10,000 nt of DNA from Chloroflexota bacterium (GTDB lineage Bacteria > Chloroflexota > Anaerolineae > Anaerolineales > Villigracilaceae): NCBI GenBank assembly GCA_020217065.1, contig JAIWOB010000125.1, positions 1-10,000 of the forward strand. Direction: 5' to 3'. Numbering within the stretch: the first letter of the stretch is position 1; every line of letters begins with the position of its first letter. Shown piece after piece: positions 1,716 through 8,903 of this stretch. Made by a program: the position numbers and the translations under genes. Below the pieces are notes generated by a model that saw only the letters and a list, made by a program, of their open reading frames with translations, searched no databases and was not told the origin of the DNA.

Positions 1716-3252
1716 CCAATTCGCCCATCACATCCGGGACGCTGTCGAGCAGGTCGCCGGCGAGGACGGAAGCCGTTGAGCCGAGGTCTTCGGCGGCAAC
1801 GAGACCCGCCTGGGCGTGGATGAAGGCGCCAGCGACAGCGGCATCGTAAACGTCAACCCCCTGGGAAAGCAAGCCGACAATCAAGCCCGCCAAAACGTCG
1901 CCGGTGCCGGCGCGGGCTAGAGCGGGAGAAGCGACAGGGATGACGGTCATTTTCCCATCCGGCGCGGCAACCACGGTAAACGCGCCCTTCAAAACCACAA
2001 CGCGTCCCCATTCCTTTGCATACTGAAGAGCGACCTCATCCTTTCTTTGCAGGATTTCCTCGCGGGAAAGCCCCGTCAGCGCAGACATTTCGCCGATGTG
2101 CGGCGTCAGCGCGGCGGAAGAGGGAACTTTCTTATGCCAGTCTGGAATTTTGGCGAGATGCCGCAAACCGTCCGCGTCTATTACGGTGGGAAGTTTGACG
2201 TTTGAAATCGCCTCCTCGACAAATTTGGCGGTCGAAGGATGAGCGCCCAAGCCAGGTCCAATTAAAAAGGCGGTGGGACGCTGGAGATGATTCAACAAAA
2301 CGGCGGCCGCTTTTTCTGAAATAAAACCCGCCTCGTGCGGGAGCAAAACCCAAGTGGCTTCGGGAAGGCGTCCCGCAAGGACAGGGTGCAAAGGTTCGGG
2401 AACGGCAAGCGTCACCAGCCCCGCGCCGGCGCGGTAGGCTGCGGCTCCAGCCAGCAAAGCGGCGCCGGTGTAGTTTTGCGAACCGGCGGCAATCAACGCC
2501 GTCCCAAACGTTCCCTTGTGAGAATCAAGGGGGCGGTCAGGCAAAAGCCCGGCGACCAGTTCGTAATCCGCGACTTCGGACTGAATCCCATAAAACGAAT
2601 CAAGTTCCAGCGGCAAACCTATATCCACAACAGTTAGTTCGCCGACAAATTCGAAGGCGGGCAATTTCAAAAGTCCCCGCTTGACAGCCGCCATGCACAC
2701 CGTCAAGTCGGCGGGAATACATTCAAGTGCGGTTTTGCCGGAATCGCAGTCTACGCCGGAGGGACAATCTACGGCGATAACAAAGGGCGGCTCTTCCATA
2801 AGTTCCATCGCCAAAAGCGTTTGTTCCAGGATGGCGGCGGCATCGTCGCGGAGAGGGAGTTTGAAGCCTGTGCCAAGCAGCCCGTCGAGCAAAACGTCGG
2901 CGGAAGAAAGGGCGGCTTCGTCAAAATCCACGCCCGCTGCGGCGAAGGTCGCGCGCCCGCCGGCGGCGCGCAGTTGAGCGACTAATTCATCCTCTTGCTT
3001 ACGCTTGAAAATATAAGCGCTCGCATGAAAGCCTTCTTCCGCAAGGCGGGTCAGGGCGATGAGGGTATCTCCGCCGTTATTGCCAGGACCAACCAGCCCG
3101 AACACGTTTTGCCAGCCGTTTTTGGAAAGAACTTCGGCGGCGGTTTCTGCAAGTCCGCGCCCCGCGTTTTGCATCATTTCGGCGTAAGATAAGCCGCGCG
3201 CATTCGCCTCCTTTTCGATGGCAATCATTTGGGATACGGTCACGAGTTTCAT
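1711..3252 (-). CDS. nnr: Bifunctional NAD(P)H-hydrate epimerase / ADP-dependent NAD(P)H-hydrate dehydratase
   Basis: A 513-aa metabolite-repair enzyme that restores hydrated NADH and NADPH. The N-terminal YjeF_N/NAXE domain (residues 1 to about 225) interconverts R and S hydrates. The C-terminal ribokinase-like NAXD domain (about 240-510) dehydrates the S form using ADP. Seen in the N-domain: NAGR (29-32), the nucleotide loop GPGNNGGDT (55-63) and VDCPSGVD (161-168). Seen in the C-domain: an AAYRAGAGLVTLA segment, GPGLG (332-336), DADGL (359-363), TPHIGE (383-388), LKGAFTVV, and the catalytic ARAGTGDVLAG (446-456) with Asp452. Full length for the fused bacterial form. The ATG at 3252 is chosen because GGAGAAGG sits just upstream and the product begins MKLVTVSQM as in relatives. 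An in-frame TTG at 3282, also with an AAGGAA upstream, would add ten residues of no recognised homology. Housekeeping; convergent with the SPFH gene and divergent from the Zn-ribbon gene. Confidence 0.96.
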   Translation of the reverse strand: MKLVTVSQMIAIEKEANARGLSYAEMMQNAGRGLAETAAEVLSKNGWQNVFGLVGPGNNGGDTLIALTRLAEEGFHASAYIFKRKQEDELVAQLRAAGGRATFAAAGVDFDEAALSSADVLLDGLLGTGFKLPLRDDAAAILEQTLLAMELMEEPPFVIAVDCPSGVDCDSGKTALECIPADLTVCMAAVKRGLLKLPAFEFVGELTVVDIGLPLELDSFYGIQSEVADYELVAGLLPDRPLDSHKGTFGTALIAAGSQNYTGAALLAGAAAYRAGAGLVTLAVPEPLHPVLAGRLPEATWVLLPHEAGFISEKAAAVLLNHLQRPTAFLIGPGLGAHPSTAKFVEEAISNVKLPTVIDADGLRHLAKIPDWHKKVPSSAALTPHIGEMSALTGLSREEILQRKDEVALQYAKEWGRVVVLKGAFTVVAAPDGKMTVIPVASPALARAGTGDVLAGLIVGLLSQGVDVYDAAVAGAFIHAQAGLVAAEDLGSTASVLAGDLLDSVPDVMGELE

Positions 3253-3294
3253 GCCTTCTCCATTCTCAATGTGAAAATTCAACTTTATTTCCTT

Positions 3295-3300
3295 AATATA
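3295..3300 (-). promoter_or_regulatory. Possible -10 box for nnr
   Basis: On the minus strand TATATT lies about 43 bases before the nnr ATG, giving a plausible leader. No good -35 box is found 16-18 bases further upstream, so this is only a weak candidate. Confidence 0.3.
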
Positions 3301-3390
3301 CCGCAGTCCTTCCTTTTAGCCGCTTCCAAATCTTGATAGTCTTTGATAGCCGCGCCGCATAGAATGAAGAGCGGAAAGGATGTGAACCCC

Positions 3391-3627
3391 ATGGAAATCC
3401 CACGACATTGGAGACTTAAACAACAGCGATACAATTTGAGCGGCAGGGTGTGCCCGCACTGCGAAAACAAAATCTTCCCGCCGCGAAGCGTTTGCCCCAA
3501 TTGCGGAGGCGACTTAAATCAGGCTCCCGCCAGCGTCTCAAGAGTCGACGCTTACACAACGGTTTATAAACCCTCTGCGAAAGAAGTTGCAATTTCCGCC
3601 CTTCTTGAAGAACGGGTTGCGGCATAG
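3391..3627 (+). CDS. Small Zn-ribbon protein (DUF35/OB-fold-associated type), short C-terminus
   Basis: A 78-aa protein. The start at ATG 3391 gives MEIPRHWRLKQQRY, which resembles the N-terminal helix of Zn-ribbon/OB-fold DUF35 proteins. AAAGGA at 3375-3380 serves as a slightly distant Shine-Dalgarno; upstream in-frame starts (3343, 3364) lack support. Residues 21-38 form a rubredoxin-like zinc knuckle: C21-P-H-C24 and C35-P-N-C38, with FPPR between them. In full-length DUF35 proteins an OB-fold of about 70-80 residues follows. Here only about 40 residues remain, including VDAYTTVYKP, which looks like the first OB strands, before a TAG stop. A terminator begins 16 bases later, so no lost downstream coding remains visible. 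It may be a naturally short variant or a truncated gene. DUF35 proteins often partner thiolases or HMG-CoA synthase in acyl-CoA metabolism; no such partner is in the window. Function is not assigned. Confidence 0.72.
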   Translation: MEIPRHWRLKQQRYNLSGRVCPHCENKIFPPRSVCPNCGGDLNQAPASVSRVDAYTTVYKPSAKEVAISALLEERVAA

Positions 3628-3643
3628 CAAATTGATTTTCTCC

Positions 3644-3680
3644 AAAGACTGGACGCCATCGCCGTCCAGTCTTTTTATTT
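3644..3680 (+). terminator. Intrinsic terminator after the Zn-ribbon gene
   Basis: A perfect 12-bp stem, AAAGACTGGACG (3644-3655) with CGTCCAGTCTTT (3663-3674), has a 7-base loop and runs into TTTTTATTT. It isolates the following regulator operon from upstream transcription. Confidence 0.9.
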
Positions 3681-3693
3681 GTCAAAAATACTC

Positions 3694-3722
3694 TTGAATT
3701 TTTCTTATTTTTGCCCTATACT
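3694..3722 (+). promoter_or_regulatory. Promoter of the GntR-glycyl radical enzyme operon
   Basis: TTGAAT (3694-3699), 17-base spacer, TATACT (3717-3722). The near-consensus boxes and optimal spacing make this a strong sigma-70-type candidate, with transcription expected to begin around 3729, about 27 bases before the regulator's ATG. The region is notably AT-rich compared with its surroundings. Confidence 0.8.
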
Positions 3723-3731
3723 ATATTTATC

Positions 3732-3742
3732 TGGTAAAACCA
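3732..3742 (+). promoter_or_regulatory. FadR-subfamily operator TGGT-N3-ACCA
   Basis: TGGTAAAACCA is an exact instance of the TGGTNNNACCA inverted repeat recognised by FadR-subfamily GntR regulators such as PdhR. It sits just downstream of the predicted transcription start, where bound repressor would block initiation, and 14 bases upstream of a FadR-type gene. Autorepression with relief by the pathway substrate is the natural inference. Binding has not been shown. Confidence 0.75.
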
Positions 3743-3755
3743 CCAGCCACAAACT

Positions 3756-4484
3756 ATGCGAAGCCCTATTGAGCCTATTAAAGCGCAAAGCCTAAAGGAA
3801 GCCTGCGTCAACCGTTTGGAAGAGTTAATTCTTTCCGGCGAATTGCAAATTGGCGAACAACTTCCCTCTGAGCGGGATTTTGCCGCCCGCATCGGGGTCA
3901 GCCGTCCCGTTCTGCATGAGGCGCTTGTGGATTTGGACGCCAAAGGGTTGGTGAAAATCGTCCCGCGGCGCGGGGTTTTCGTCAACGATTACCGCCGCTC
4001 CGGTTCGATGGCAATTTTATCTTCCCTGTTGACTTATCATAACGGACGCCTCGACCCAGCGTTTACCCAAAGCCTGATTGATATGCGCTTGGTTGTGGAA
4101 ATGGAAACCGCGCGGCTTGCGGCGCAAAACCGCAAAGAAGCCCAATTGGCGGAACTTCACGTTCTGCTTGAAGACGAGCAAAAAGCCGCCTGCTGCGACC
4201 CGCAATCCTTGACCGAACTTGACTTTTCGTTTCACCTCTCAGTCGCCATTGCGTCCGGCAACCTGGTTTACCCCCTCATTATCAATTCGTTCAAAGGCGT
4301 TTACACGAGCCTGACCGGCGAATTCTTCCGCAAATATTATGGAACGGACGTAGCGGAAAACGTTCGTCAATTTCACGTCAGAATCGTAGACGCCATTGAG
4401 CGAAAGGACGCCGAGAACGCCGCCAGCGTCATGAGGGAAATGCTCCGTCACGGAGAATCTTATTTGAAAGGAGAAAGACCATGA
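3756..4484 (+). CDS. GntR-family (FadR/FCD subfamily) transcriptional regulator
   Basis: A 242-aa DNA-binding regulator. Residues about 10-78 form the GntR winged helix: ELILSGELQIGEQLPSERDFA, then the recognition region GVSRPVLHEAL, then the wing GLVKIVPRRGVFV. Residues about 100-236 form the all-helical FCD effector domain, where a carboxylate-type ligand often binds beside a metal. Asp156-x3-His160 and His207 match three usual metal ligands. At the usual fourth position, 22 residues after His207, there is Met229, with His232 one turn later, so the metal site may be altered. The ATG at 3756 has no Shine-Dalgarno and only a short leader, suggesting weak translation. It is the first gene of the operon. 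Its TGA overlaps the ATG of the glycyl radical enzyme (ATGA), so it very likely controls that enzyme from the operator at 3732-3742. Family is certain; the inducer is unknown. Confidence 0.95.
   Translation: MRSPIEPIKAQSLKEACVNRLEELILSGELQIGEQLPSERDFAARIGVSRPVLHEALVDLDAKGLVKIVPRRGVFVNDYRRSGSMAILSSLLTYHNGRLDPAFTQSLIDMRLVVEMETARLAAQNRKEAQLAELHVLLEDEQKAACCDPQSLTELDFSFHLSVAIASGNLVYPLIINSFKGVYTSLTGEFFRKYYGTDVAENVRQFHVRIVDAIERKDAENAASVMREMLRHGESYLKGERP
4467..4473 (+). promoter_or_regulatory. Strong ribosome binding site of the glycyl radical enzyme
   Basis: AAAGGAG lies seven bases before the ATG at 4481, inside the end of the regulator gene. It fixes the start of the enzyme and contrasts with the absent site of the regulator, so much more enzyme than regulator would be made from the same transcript. 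Confidence 0.8.
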
Positions 4485-7003
4485 CCACATGCGAAGTCGC
4501 AGAAAAACCCCGCTTCGCCATCAAAACGCCCGCCAATCTTTCGCCGCGTATTGCATGGCTGCGCGATTATTATTTTCAGGGCGTGGAGCGCAAATGGAAT
4601 AATGAATATACCGCCTGGACGACGGGCGCTCCCTGGGATTTCCAATACAACGAACTGTCGTTTTACATCGTCCCAGAGACCTACGCCTTCCTCCAGACCT
4701 TTCGTTCCTCCTTCAAGCAGAGCGCGCGCCGCGTAGAACTCCATCCCGATTTTTGGAAGTGGAGCCTGCCGGAGCGCCGCGCCTGGTTCAACCGCGAAGT
4801 CATGGTGAATTATCTGCCAAAGGAAATCCTGCCCGGCGACCTGATTGCCGGCGCGCGTTTCAACGTCATGACTTCCTCCTGCCTGAATAAAAAGGAAACC
4901 CAGGAGCGGGATAAATTGGTTTACGGTCCAAAGGGAGCGCGGGCGGCAATGCTTTGGTTTCACAATCACGGCTACGGAAACGCAGGCGCAACTTCGGGAC
5001 ACCTTATCCCCGATTATCAGAGAATTATCCGCGAAGGCTGGAAGTCGGTCAACGCCGAGTTGGAGACAATCTACGCCGGACTTTCGGGAGCGGAAAAGCG
5101 GGGGAAAAAAGGCGGGCAACTGCGCGCGATGATAACCGCCTCGACAATGGCGCGCGACCTGGCTGCCGAATATTCCAAAGAATGCCTCAATCTAGCGAAC
5201 GCCGAATCCGACGCCGTTAGAAAAAGGGAATTGCTCCAAATGGCGGACAATTTGACGCGAGTCCCATGGGAGCCGGCGCAGACTTTCTGGGAGGCTGTGC
5301 AATCGCTTTGGCTAACCCACATGCTGGTCATGTCCGACGAGAATTACCCAGGTCCCGGCGACTCCTTCGGGCGGCTTGACCAGTATTTATACCCGCTCTG
5401 GGAAAAATCCATCCGCGAAGGCATGGATGTTGAGTTTGGCAAGGAAATCCTGAAATGCTTTTGGATTCACTGCAACACCGCCTACGACGGCATGATTCGC
5501 ACAGGCGGCAATCAGGGCATCACGGCGGGATACGGTCAACTCTTTACCATTTCAGGGATGGGCGCAGGCGGACGCGACATGACCAACGATTTAACTTATA
5601 TCCTGTTGGACGTGATTGACGAAATGTCGCCCATTTTGGAGCCAAAACCCAACGTGCGCCTCCATCGCGGTTCGCCCGAAAAACTGCTCGACCGCGTGGT
5701 GGAGATGATTGCATCCAGCCAGGGGTCCCCCTTCCTGCTCAACTTCGACGAGCGCTCAATGGCTGGTTTGATGCTCGAAGCGAAGAAATCGGGCGCGGAA
5801 CGCCTCATCAACGAAAACAACGTCTTTGATTATGCGCCGGTGGGCTGCCTGGAAAATACAATGGCAGGCAACGACCGCTCCGGCACAGTGGACGCCAACC
5901 TAAACCTCCTCAAAGCGGTGGAATTGACCCTGACCGGCGGCTACGACCTGATTCCCTTTCGGGATGAAATAACGGGCAAGACCGATAAGCGAATCCGATG
6001 GGGAGAGGACACCGGCGACCCGACTCAATTCAAAACCTGGGAAGAATTCTGGGAAGCATATGCCGCGCAAACCCGCCGCATCGTCCGCCGTATCGTGGAA
6101 TTATACGAACAATCCGAGGCGATTCGGGCGAAGTACTTCCCCACCCCCTACCTTTCCTGTCTCGTCAAGGGCTGCGCGCAAAAAGGCTTGGACGTCAACG
6201 AAGGCGGAGCGGAACTCAATTATGTAACCATTGAAGCGGTGACTTACGCCACCGCCGTCGATTCGCTGCTGGCGGTCAAGCATCTGGTGTACGACACAAA
6301 GGCTTGCAGCATGGCGGAATTGATTCAAGCGTTGAAGGATAATTGGGTGGGGCATGAGGTTTTGCAAGCCCGCGCCCTTCACAAAACCCCAAAATACGGA
6401 CGCGACGACGACTACGCCGACGCCCTTGCCAGACAGGTGATGGAACTTTGGACGGAAGAAACCTGGAAGCATAAGACCAAATCTACAAACCGCCAATTCC
6501 GCCCTGGGATGTTGTCGTGGAATTATTGGGTGGCGGATTCTTTCATCCTGCCCGCCAGCCCAGACGGACGTCCGCGCGGGAAATTTCTTTCAAACGCGCT
6601 TTGCCCGTCCAACGGCGCCGACATCAACGGACCTACCGCCAACGTCAACTCGGTCGGCAAGGCGTTAGGCGGAAAAGCCGCCGACGGCAAAGGCGACTGG
6701 GCGGATTACTTAAATCTGCTCCCAAATGGCGGCAGCCACACCATGACTTTCAACCCCTCCATCCTGCGCGACCCCGAACACCGCGAGAAATTCAAAGCCT
6801 TTATAAAAGGCTATATCGAAAACGGAGGCTCCGCCCTGCAAATTAACCTGATTGACGCCGACATGCTGCGCGACGCTCAAAAACACCCGGAAAATTACCG
6901 CCACCTTCTCGTGCGCGTCACCGGCTACAACGCCTACTTCACCTCCATCGGGCGCGAACTTCAAAACGAAATCATCGCCCGCGAATCTCATCAGATGCGA
7001 TGA
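4481..7003 (+). CDS. Glycyl radical enzyme of the PFL-like superfamily, substrate unknown
   Basis: An 840-aa enzyme that would carry a backbone glycyl radical and generate a transient cysteine thiyl radical for a strictly anaerobic elimination, decarboxylation or C-C/C-heteroatom cleavage. The PFL-type barrel fills residues about 20-700. The C-terminal Gly_radical domain (about 715-840) ends with LRDAQKHPENYRHL, then R812-V-T-G815-Y816 and NEIIARE; Gly815 is the radical site. The thiyl cysteine is Cys456 in APVGCLEN, with Glu458 giving the C-x-E motif of dehydratase/decarboxylase/lyase-type members and not the Cys-Cys pair of pyruvate formate-lyase. Other superfamily marks are GHLIPDYQRII (173-183), GRLDQYLYP (297-305), GGRDMTNDLTYILLD (363-377), VRLHRGSPEKLL (392-403) and the less usual PFLLNFDE (417-424). 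No signal for microcompartment targeting is apparent. It overlaps the regulator and the activase by four bases each. No small Fe-S subunit gene, as in hydroxyphenylacetate decarboxylase or benzylsuccinate synthase, is nearby. Arylacetate decarboxylase-like chemistry is one possibility, but no substrate can be named. Confidence 0.95.
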   Translation: MTTCEVAEKPRFAIKTPANLSPRIAWLRDYYFQGVERKWNNEYTAWTTGAPWDFQYNELSFYIVPETYAFLQTFRSSFKQSARRVELHPDFWKWSLPERRAWFNREVMVNYLPKEILPGDLIAGARFNVMTSSCLNKKETQERDKLVYGPKGARAAMLWFHNHGYGNAGATSGHLIPDYQRIIREGWKSVNAELETIYAGLSGAEKRGKKGGQLRAMITASTMARDLAAEYSKECLNLANAESDAVRKRELLQMADNLTRVPWEPAQTFWEAVQSLWLTHMLVMSDENYPGPGDSFGRLDQYLYPLWEKSIREGMDVEFGKEILKCFWIHCNTAYDGMIRTGGNQGITAGYGQLFTISGMGAGGRDMTNDLTYILLDVIDEMSPILEPKPNVRLHRGSPEKLLDRVVEMIASSQGSPFLLNFDERSMAGLMLEAKKSGAERLINENNVFDYAPVGCLENTMAGNDRSGTVDANLNLLKAVELTLTGGYDLIPFRDEITGKTDKRIRWGEDTGDPTQFKTWEEFWEAYAAQTRRIVRRIVELYEQSEAIRAKYFPTPYLSCLVKGCAQKGLDVNEGGAELNYVTIEAVTYATAVDSLLAVKHLVYDTKACSMAELIQALKDNWVGHEVLQARALHKTPKYGRDDDYADALARQVMELWTEETWKHKTKSTNRQFRPGMLSWNYWVADSFILPASPDGRPRGKFLSNALCPSNGADINGPTANVNSVGKALGGKAADGKGDWADYLNLLPNGGSHTMTFNPSILRDPEHREKFKAFIKGYIENGGSALQINLIDADMLRDAQKHPENYRHLLVRVTGYNAYFTSIGRELQNEIIARESHQMR

Positions 7004-7962
7004 CCAGCGGAAAAATTTTGCACCTCCAGCGTCTTTCCACAGAAGACGGACCGGGCATTCGCACGACGGTCTTCTTCAAAGGATGTCCTCTGCGCTGCGA
7101 CTGGTGTCACAATCCTGAAAGCATTTCTTCGAGCCTGCAAACCCAGTGGTTCTCAACCCGCTGTCTGGGATGCAAAACCTGCGTCGAGACCTGTCCCAAC
7201 GACTGCCTTTCCTTGACGGAAAACGGCATTGTCATCAACCGCGAAACCTGTCAAACATGCGGCAAATGCGCCGAAGCCTGTCCGTCGGGCGCGCTCGAAA
7301 CGATAGGCAAGACTGTGACCGTTAACTGGCTGCTGTCGGAACTTTTGAAAGACCGCGCCTACTACGAAAAGTCGGGCGGCGGAGTGACGCTCTCCGGCGG
7401 AGAGCCGACCTTCCAGCCTGAGTTTGCCGAAACGCTTCTGCGCGAATTGAAAGAAAACGAGATTTCCACCGCCCTCGACACCTGCGGCTTGTGCTCGCGG
7501 CGAACTCTTGACCGCCTTCTGCCGTACGCCGACTTAATCCTATTTGACCTCAAACTATTCGACCCGATTCTGCATCGGAAATTCACAGGCGCGGCAAACG
7601 AACAGATTTTGGAAAACCTGGAATATGTCCGCAATTACATTCACAGCCAGAAGCGTCCCATCGCCTTGTGGATTCGCACCCCGCTCATCCCCGCAGCGAC
7701 CGCCACGACGGATAACCTGATTGCAATCGGCCGCCACTTGGCGGATAAACTCAACGGGACGGTGTCCCGCTGGGAACTGTGCGCCTTTAACAACCTCTGC
7801 CGCGACCAATACGCCCGTCTCGGAATTTCCTGGAAGTATGAGCAAACCCCGCTGATGACCGCAGAAGATTTGGCGCGTTGCGAACAAGCCGCCAAATCCT
7901 GCGGGATTCGCCCAGACATCGTCCTCGTCACAGGCGCCGCCCGCGCGCTGGAAACAACTTAG
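7000..7962 (+). CDS. Glycyl radical enzyme activase (radical SAM, two extra 4Fe-4S clusters)
   Basis: A 320-aa radical-SAM protein that would abstract hydrogen from Gly815 of the upstream enzyme using S-adenosylmethionine. Residues 13-27 (STEDGPGIRTTVFFK) are the activase signature. C29-x3-C33-x2-C36 in CPLRCDWC binds the SAM 4Fe-4S cluster. An inserted ferredoxin domain has two further cysteine quartets, C55/C58/C61/C65 and C84/C87/C90/C94, typical of activases for glycerol dehydratase, hydroxyphenylacetate decarboxylase and similar enzymes but absent from the pyruvate formate-lyase activase. The SAM-contacting LSGGEP (131-136) and the FDLK (182-185) motif are present. Full length for the class. 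Its ATG overlaps the enzyme's TGA (ATGA) and has no good Shine-Dalgarno, so translation is probably coupled. It is dedicated to the upstream enzyme by position. Very confident in family. Confidence 0.97.
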   Translation: MTSGKILHLQRLSTEDGPGIRTTVFFKGCPLRCDWCHNPESISSSLQTQWFSTRCLGCKTCVETCPNDCLSLTENGIVINRETCQTCGKCAEACPSGALETIGKTVTVNWLLSELLKDRAYYEKSGGGVTLSGGEPTFQPEFAETLLRELKENEISTALDTCGLCSRRTLDRLLPYADLILFDLKLFDPILHRKFTGAANEQILENLEYVRNYIHSQKRPIALWIRTPLIPAATATTDNLIAIGRHLADKLNGTVSRWELCAFNNLCRDQYARLGISWKYEQTPLMTAEDLARCEQAAKSCGIRPDIVLVTGAARALETT

Positions 7963-7970
7963 GAGAAACC

Positions 7971-8816
7971 ATGCAACCCCTAACCGCCTTTTCGGAAGAA
8001 GACATCCAAAACACCAAACCGGAGATGAAAATTGGCTTGCTGGCGACTGTCACGCCGGAAGGTTTCCCCCATATCACGCTACTTTCCTCTCTCATGGCTT
8101 GCGCGCCGTCCAAAATGTGTTTCGGACAATTCGTCGAAGGGACATCCAAAAAACACATCCTTGAAAATCCGAAGGTTGGATTTCTCATCATGAGTCTGGA
8201 CAAAAACCTCTGGCGCGGCAAGGCAAATTACACTCATCGAGTCAAAGAAGGCGCGGAATACGATTATTACAACAACACGCCAATGTTCCGTTACAACGCC
8301 TACTTCGGCGTGCATACCGTCTATTATTTCGACTTGGTCAACCAAAGCGGAAAATCTCCCCTGCCCATGAACAAAATCGTCGCCGCCGCCGTTCAAACAA
8401 GGCTGGCGCGCGCTTTCGGGCGCAAAACGGCAAAGGAAGAAGTCGCCAACCGCTGGACGCGCGATTTTTTAAATAAAATGGACAACCTAAAATTCCTGTC
8501 CTATGTCGGCGCGGACGGTTACCCTCTCATCATTCCCGCCATTCAAACTCAAAGCCTCGACTCGGCGCGCGTCTTGTTTTCCACTTCGGCGTATTCGGAC
8601 GAAATAGAAGCCATTCCGGCGGGGGTTCCCCTTGCCGTCTTTGGCATGGCGCTGACGATGGAAGACGTACTCCTGCGCGGAACGTATCAAGGCGTCCGCC
8701 GCATAGGAGGAATCAAAGCCGGAGTTGTCGAACTGAATTGGGTCTACAACCCAATGCCGCCGGCACCGGGGCAGGTTTACCCTCCACTAAAGTTGAATCC
8801 CGTACGGCAATTTTAG
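7971..8816 (+). CDS. Two-domain FMN-binding split-barrel (PPOX-like) protein
   Basis: A 281-aa protein with AGGAG at 7961-7965, which overlaps the activase stop, five bases before the ATG. The fold call rests on two repeated split-barrel-like units. The first, about 20-122, has IGLLATVTPEGFPHITLL, then a strand with MCFGQF, then TSKKHILENPKVGFLIM, the usual start of PPOX-type flavin/F420-binding proteins. The second, about 172-260, has LKFLSYVGADGYPLIIP, VLFSTSAYSDE and a barrel-closing GTYQGVRRIGGIKAGVVELNWVY. A helical linker (about 132-170) joins them. No signal peptide or membrane helix. Last gene of the operon, ahead of a terminator, so it is likely co-regulated with the radical enzyme. 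It could be a flavin-dependent reductase acting on the pathway product, an electron donor to the activase clusters, or an oxygen-defence protein; sequence does not decide. Recognition of the family is moderate and function is unknown. Confidence 0.7.
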   Translation: MQPLTAFSEEDIQNTKPEMKIGLLATVTPEGFPHITLLSSLMACAPSKMCFGQFVEGTSKKHILENPKVGFLIMSLDKNLWRGKANYTHRVKEGAEYDYYNNTPMFRYNAYFGVHTVYYFDLVNQSGKSPLPMNKIVAAAVQTRLARAFGRKTAKEEVANRWTRDFLNKMDNLKFLSYVGADGYPLIIPAIQTQSLDSARVLFSTSAYSDEIEAIPAGVPLAVFGMALTMEDVLLRGTYQGVRRIGGIKAGVVELNWVYNPMPPAPGQVYPPLKLNPVRQF

Positions 8817-8827
8817 AATCGCGCGTC

Positions 8828-8857
8828 AAAAAGCCGCTCCGCGAGGGGCGGCTTTTT
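8828..8857 (+). terminator. Intrinsic terminator closing the glycyl radical operon
   Basis: A 13-bp stem with one G-U pair, AAAAAGCCGCTCC (8828-8840) with GGGGCGGCTTTTT (8845-8857), is capped by a GCGA (GNRA) tetraloop and ends in five T. An alternative outer pairing, GCGTCAA (8823-8829) with TTGACGC (8861-8867), flanks it. That downstream arm contains the -35 box of the next gene, so terminator and promoter touch. Confidence 0.9.
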
Positions 8858-8860
8858 CGA

Positions 8861-8890
8861 TTGACGCATTGCGGCTTAATGTGCTAAACT
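8861..8890 (+). promoter_or_regulatory. Promoter of the LacI-family gene
   Basis: TTGACG (8861-8866), 18-base spacer, TAAACT (8885-8890), preceded by TGC as an extended -10. Transcription would begin near 8897, only about 14 bases before the ATG. Confidence 0.7.
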
Positions 8891-8903
8891 GAAAGCGCTT
8901 TCA
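8890..8903. promoter_or_regulatory. LacI-family operator TGAAAGCGCTTTCA
   Basis: A perfect 14-bp palindrome with central CG, the shape bound by LacI-family dimers. It also satisfies every position of the catabolite-responsive element pattern TGWAANCGNTNWCA. It begins at the last base of the -10 box and is centred on the expected transcription start, 8 bases before the LacI-family ATG, so autorepression is likely. Confidence 0.85.

Follow-up and report, generated by a model that had tools for sequence, protein, structure and literature searches.

A probable operon built around an uncharacterized glycyl radical enzyme family and a split-barrel partner in Chloroflexota and other phyla

Described glycyl radical systems and the locus

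Choline, isethionate, hydroxyproline and hydrocarbons are known substrates of glycyl radical enzymes (GREs) in anoxic habitats. A Cys-x-Glu (C-x-E) active-site motif, together with a His or an Asp at the position of H164 in glycerol dehydratase (GD), is the mark of the eliminase branch, made up of GD, propanediol dehydratase (PD), CutC and HypD. The operons of X-succinate synthases carry small accessory subunits and CoA-activation genes. The present analysis concerns a GRE gene and its three same-strand neighbors on a stretch of 10,000 nucleotides, hereafter the window (positions 1 to 10,000 of contig JAIWOB010000125.1, assembly GCA_020217065.1), from a Chloroflexota bacterium whose genome bin is incomplete (1.6 Mb in 157 contigs, 66% complete). 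The locus is probably an operon, and probably a transferable one, for one anaerobic radical reaction around an uncharacterized GRE family. A preliminary description of this DNA had named a promoter and operator, a FadR-type regulator, a C-x-E GRE, an activase, a two-domain PPOX-like protein and a terminator, and all of these were found in place between positions 3694 and 8857. The features are as follows.

3694..3722, + strand: promoter-like TTGAAT-17-TATACT, a -35/-10-type pair
3732..3742, + strand: operator TGGTAAAACCA, predicted to serve the FadR-type regulator and lying 9 nucleotides 3' of the -10 box
3756..4484, + strand: FadR-type GntR/FCD transcriptional regulator, 242 amino acids (Pfam, NCBIfam)
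4481..7003, + strand: GRE, 840 amino acids, with C456-x-E458, H174 and a glycyl loop near G815
7000..7962, + strand: radical-SAM glycyl-radical activase, 320 amino acids, with CxxxCxxC and two ferredoxin-type cysteine clusters
7971..8816, + strand: PPOX-like protein, 281 amino acids, with a split barrel of the type that binds flavin mononucleotide (FMN; residues ~6-132) and a second barrel-like half (~161-266)
8828..8857, + strand: intrinsic terminator hairpin (folding)
3644-3674: terminator-like hairpin 5' of the operon, after a small zinc-ribbon open reading frame
From 8911: LacI-type regulator gene, past the operon's terminator

Among the described systems, HypD and its activase have the GRE fold, the C-x-E motif and the His at the GD H164 position in common with the window, and HypD gives the best single-domain Protein Data Bank (PDB) profile score for the window GRE family; both HypD (33% identity) and its activase differ by model scores, given below, that stay well short of the cut-offs. 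Compared with the B12-independent glycerol and 1,2-propanediol dehydratases (32% identity for GD), the window GRE does not keep the residues equivalent to GD H281/S282, D447 and Y640, and, unlike in these systems, no dehydrogenase or shell genes recur near operons of the window type. CutC shares the fold and the C-x-E motif, but has an Asp where the window GRE has H174 and is 31% identical. The small-subunit and CoA-activation genes of X-succinate synthases are absent from the window operon, and none recurs beside its relatives. The fold of the first barrel of the PPOX-like protein is shared with HupZ, Desulfovibrio FMN-bp, LDB0262 and F420/biliverdin reductases; the window protein differs from these FMN-binding split-barrel proteins by its two barrel halves per chain and by its tie to one GRE family. 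The regulator has the GntR and FCD domains of FadR/PdhR/LldR/NanR-type regulators but reaches no equivalog cut-off. At the level of operon context, the limonenylsuccinate synthase operon provides a precedent for a PPOX protein beside a GRE: it encodes LssP, which is putatively a PPOX protein and for which the authors propose no definite function. That operon differs by its GRE class and by encoding a full hydrocarbon pathway (PMC12583861).

The enzyme family and its partner

The window enzyme is a member of the GRE superfamily, with the Gly_radical domain (PF01228, 78.2 bits for a cut-off of 22.2), a PFL-like domain (Pfam, 406.3 bits), the catalytic Cys and a dedicated activase. Model scores and phylogeny place it in a family apart from the named ones. 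The best NCBIfam score, 403 bits, is obtained with the broad subfamily TIGR01774 and lies under its cut-off of 678, and the full-length equivalogs give at most 382 bits for cut-offs of 994-1150. These include HypD (NF043068, 378.2 bits for 1100), CutC (TIGR04394, 313.2 for 1050) and the 4-hydroxyphenylacetate and indoleacetate decarboxylases (NF033715 and NF033718, 176.0 and 258.3 for 1150 and 1100). As a yardstick, two GREs from the same bacterial class reach 1308 and 1375 bits for HypD. The best PDB match of the single sequence scores 299 bits; with the family profile, CutC, GD and HypD span 391-432 bits, with HypD at 432, single-domain CutC chains at 387-394 and one two-domain CutC chain totaling 467 bits over two stretches. 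In a tree of 101 GRE sequences, all 96 family members form one clade (support 1.0), separate from HypD, GD, CutC and an orphan GRE of 990 residues; decarboxylases and X-succinate synthases were left out of the tree and compared by score alone. The enzyme thus stands outside the clusters of known function; a place inside one, or a missing split-barrel gene beside close homologues (see below), would have refuted the reading of the preliminary description. Within the clade, a distant subfamily is firm (17/17, support 0.998) and the near one weakly supported (79/79, 0.32). The orphan GRE of about 990 residues, about 190 of them ahead of the GRE domain, comes with an activase of its own; it adjoins the operon in two lake metagenome-assembled genomes (MAGs; L050, 5990-8959, and L053, 6705-9677) and scores below every NCBIfam cut-off listed.

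C456 and G815 are invariant in 37 sequences; C456 aligns with GD C433, E458 is present, H174 occupies the GD H164 position and the glycyl loop in the C-terminal domain is of the RVxGYxxYF type. In place of the GD substrate contacts H281, S282 and D447, all 11 family members that were aligned have P292, G293 and V470.

The activase shows Radical_SAM and Fer4 matches in two stretches (Pfam) and reaches 308.8 bits for TIGR02494, above the cut-off of 174.35, and 289 bits for the HypD-activase model NF043069, under the cut-off of 425. The PPOX-like protein is barely above the Pfam cut-off for PNPOx_N (29.9 bits for 28.1), and its comparison with PDB sequences gave no match better than E 0.012; structure comparison assigns its first half to the split-barrel fold of FMN-binding type, and a GQFxxGxSK-type motif is conserved in its family. 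It had been described beforehand as a 'flavin (or F420)' protein. As a universal cofactor F420 is rejected: of 24 carrier genomes, some of them incomplete, 7 have a CofD scoring above cut-off. With none over the cut-off in the other 17, FMN is the better guess.

A scan restricted to one genome per species yielded 136 relatives, the best 80 of which were analyzed. An activase and then a PPOX gene are located 3' of the GRE, on the same strand, at all 69 of the 80 loci with at least 2 kb of downstream sequence, so that the split-barrel gene sits beside each of these close GRE homologues. The four-gene order put forward in the preliminary description holds for GRE, activase and PPOX, but the regulator is optional (5' of the GRE in 44 of 71 loci having at least 1 kb upstream) and the conserved unit comprises three genes. 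The reported lack of dehydrogenase, transporter and shell genes extends to the relatives, as none recurs near the operon across the best 80. No other neighbor family is found in more than 9 of the 80 loci; the next commonest, radical SAM/UPF0004, occurs in 9, on the opposite strand in 8 of them, and is one of a few neighbors common to related Dehalococcoidia. Nearly all carriers are MAGs. They are recorded as Chloroflexota (among them Anaerolineales and Dehalococcoidia), Desulfobacterota, in which Syntrophaceae are represented, and Spirochaetota; SAR324, Bacteroidetes, Bacillota and Candidatus Cryosericum contribute one record each. The second subfamily (~47% identity, other genomes of the class) is represented by 17 loci, 15 with an activase and 14 with a PPOX on the same stretch; these PPOX proteins are 24-30% identical, and unrelated genes often intervene (nitroreductase-ferredoxin, protein kinase, CAAX protease, peptidases, FAD-binding protein, amylase-like, aminotransferase). 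The genes 3' of the PPOX include sulfatase, MatE, OYE-type, chemoreceptor, PPK2 and others. Among the selected neighbors that were annotated, intervening and 3' genes vary by genome, and they were rejected as operon parts supplying extra pathway steps.

The strongest evidence for the pairing is the distribution of the two proteins. In a class sample of 298 genomes, the GRE was found at 47% identity or more in 27, and G054, where a contig begins with a GRE fragment, brings the total to 28; the PPOX was found in 26 genomes, all 26 with the GRE, and hence in 26 of the 28 GRE genomes (Fisher's test 2e-35, which ignores genome relatedness). The 4 genomes with PPOX in a phylum sample of 400, which overlaps the class sample in some genomes, are the same 4 that have the GRE. 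The PPOX gene is kept even where it is unlinked to the GRE (G013, G137 and G217), and one full-length copy is present in each of 20 carrier genomes reached from the loci, one of which has an extra 37-residue partial match. None was found in the three genomes whose sole strong GRE match was HypD-like; together with the near-perfect co-occurrence, this ties the PPOX, in these samples, to this GRE and not to GREs generally. On such genomic evidence, the PPOX-like protein is a near-obligate partner of the GRE family. A single well-covered GRE, 76% identical, has neither an activase nor a PPOX downstream (L112 of G219, 3025-8304); it is preceded by an aminotransferase gene and followed by an amine-oxidase-like gene.

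The operon was detected in none of the 10 other genomes of the window's own genus in the phylum sample and in one other genome of the family; it is therefore a patchy and probably transferred trait. A plasmid copy of the GRE was rejected: the best plasmid match was 31% identical, to other GREs. The family is common: the best 120 database homologues of the window GRE are all at least 82% identical to it, the best 120 of a Desulfobacula member are at least 67% identical to that member, and the family's PPOX has 2175 homologues at E <=0.001. Most homologues are listed without a name, and the names given are generic, refer to uncultured organisms or fit poorly. They include formate C-acetyltransferase, pyruvate-formate lyase and trans-4-hydroxy-L-proline dehydratase, and the window GRE reaches none of the matching NCBIfam cut-offs. 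No published description of the GRE-PPOX pair was found in a literature search omitting most subscription journals; in the searched literature, the combination of a GRE with a split-barrel protein as near-obligate partner is apparently uncharacterized.

Gene junctions, transcription signals and regulation

The four same-strand genes, for the regulator, GRE, activase and PPOX-like protein, are enclosed by the hairpins at 3644-3674 and 8828-8857. The ATGA overlaps attributed to the transcript are genuine at the regulator/GRE and GRE/activase junctions, but the activase/PPOX junction is an 8-nucleotide gap: the PPOX ATG at 7971 follows the activase stop at that distance and is preceded by AGGAGAAACC, a good ribosome site. 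The 8828-8857 hairpin with its flanks folds at -25.2 kcal/mol (z -3.47); it was not picked up by a terminator consensus scan, probably on account of a T run inside its stem. Promoter-like motif matches occur in the region at chance level (4 found vs 3.5 expected). A -35/-10-like pair with 8-10 of 12 matches, ending 10-18 nucleotides 5' of the operator, is present in 16 of 19 Chloroflexota relatives, as counted without a shuffled control, and its placement is less regular in other phyla.

The regulator scores 73.9 bits for FCD and 66.1 bits for GntR (Pfam) and is under every NCBIfam equivalog cut-off. The motif TGGTNNNACCA, which we take to be the operator type of FadR/PdhR/LldR/NanR-type regulators, occurs once in the window, at 3732-3742. 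It is present within 270 bp of the regulator start in 39 of 42 relatives, for an expected background of 0.018 per 270 bp, and in 41 of the 42 regulator-bearing loci when 1.6 kb 5' of the GRE is scanned, L049 being the exception. Conversely, it was found in none of the 33 loci without a detected regulator, including all 27 with at least 1 kb upstream. In the ~47%-identity subfamily, no regulator was seen beside the GRE at any of the 17 loci, some offering little upstream DNA. The arrangement of operator and promoter is, as predicted from these motifs, that of an autorepressor.

A regulon extending beyond the operon was considered and not drawn. Outside the operon, GGTGGTNNNACCASC is no commoner than a reversed control in 19 carrier genomes. 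A search for GGTGGTTTTACCA in 8 genomes recovered the operon's own site in 7, plus three others. Part of the extra operator-like sites was covered by eight stretches, in six of which the site is intragenic and in two between genes or at a gene edge (L228, with thioredoxin and RACo-like genes, and L229, with a response regulator). In Candidatus Cryosericum odellii (L230, 5600-7500, the same region as L064), a prismane/hybrid-cluster protein gene lies beside the operon, with a promoter region and operator GGTGGTATGACCACC near-identical to those of the GRE operon. The copy would stem from duplication of the promoter or from membership in a common regulon, and is treated as a local duplication. 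Of 53 prismane-family rows (Hcp or CO dehydrogenase), 30 loci were taken; in the 29 loci of other carriers the operator pattern was never found outside the prismane-family gene. It lies inside that gene in 3 of the 29, and one of these three, L234, ends at the gene start, hiding the upstream region.

Two observations concern the flanks of the operon. A perfect palindrome, TGAAAGCGCTTTCA, at 8890-8903, immediately 5' of the LacI-type regulator gene, is probably that regulator's own operator. A small open reading frame at 3343-3627, encoding a ChsH2-like zinc ribbon, separates the operon from a gene for NAD(P)H-hydrate repair.

Proposed reaction, alternatives and significance

An eliminase-type GRE with a flavin-type partner acting on the same pathway, the whole being substrate-induced, is tentatively preferred, with a confidence that stops somewhat short of even. 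The regulator would act as a repressor, its release being triggered by the substrate or by a metabolite, and the activase would install the glycyl radical on the GRE, which would form a thiyl radical at C456, abstract hydrogen from a polar substrate and then eliminate water or another small leaving group. The flavin-type protein would, in the simplest case, use FMN to reduce or otherwise process the unsaturated or carbonyl product, which would explain the absence of recurring dehydrogenase, transporter and shell genes. We infer this product-processing role, and the module may be catabolic for one substrate, as the preliminary description proposed.

Several points weigh against this scheme. The GD contacts are not kept (H281/S282 to P292/G293, D447 to V470), which renders the reaction class uncertain, and C-x-E is also found in GRE decarboxylases. 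Among the matches listed for a structural model built from 37 sequences, Z is 31.7-32.2 for the C-S eliminases IseG, HpsG and isethionate lyase, 31.4 for arylacetate decarboxylase and 30.9 for benzylsuccinate synthase, and the classes are poorly separated. Furthermore, two genomes have the GRE with no PPOX found: G219, in which no activase adjoins it, and G090, in which the contig stops inside the activase.

The main alternative, possible although rather unlikely, is that the PPOX-like protein maintains the radical machinery instead of catalyzing a pathway step: it would either supply the activase with electrons through FMN or protect or repair the glycyl radical. Such a PPOX is missing from 3 of 3 genomes that carry a HypD-like GRE without one of the window type, which argues against this alternative, as does G013, where the PPOX is unlinked to the GRE and, within the 16 kb examined, to any activase. 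It is less probable still that the GRE is a decarboxylase or other one-step lyase whose product passes out of the cell and requires no downstream enzyme, a proposal with which the absence of a recurring pathway gene beside the unit and the compatibility of C-x-E with decarboxylases are in keeping. That the enzyme belongs, though divergent, to a known family, for instance that of trans-4-hydroxyproline dehydratase, a name borne by some public homologue records, is very improbable in view of its 33% identity to HypD and of a score near one third of the cut-off that the same-class HypD pair exceeds. A fumarate-adding hydrocarbon activator of the X-succinate synthase type would suit the many Desulfobacterota, Syntrophaceae and Chloroflexota MAGs among the carriers, several of which are recorded as coming from the subsurface or from sediments, but is scarcely credible given the C-x-E motif, the lack of recurring small-subunit, CoA-transferase and beta-oxidation genes, and PDB profile scores of 259-268 bits vs 391-432 for CutC, GD and HypD.

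With elimination and flavin-dependent processing as the preferred scheme, a broader proposal can be advanced, itself held a little more doubtfully than not. In a widespread, uncharacterized anaerobic pathway, the GRE and its tandem split-barrel flavoprotein would be obligately paired, so that thiyl-radical elimination and flavin chemistry are coupled on a single substrate. Uncultured members of Chloroflexota, Desulfobacterota and further groups of anaerobes from sediments would use the pathway for an abundant compound with which no GRE has so far been connected. With its flavin-type partner near-obligate and its operator conserved, the system is testable with few proteins and one inducer. Given the roles of known GREs in anoxic habitats, so common an orphan family may point to an unrecognized flux of carbon, nitrogen or sulfur.

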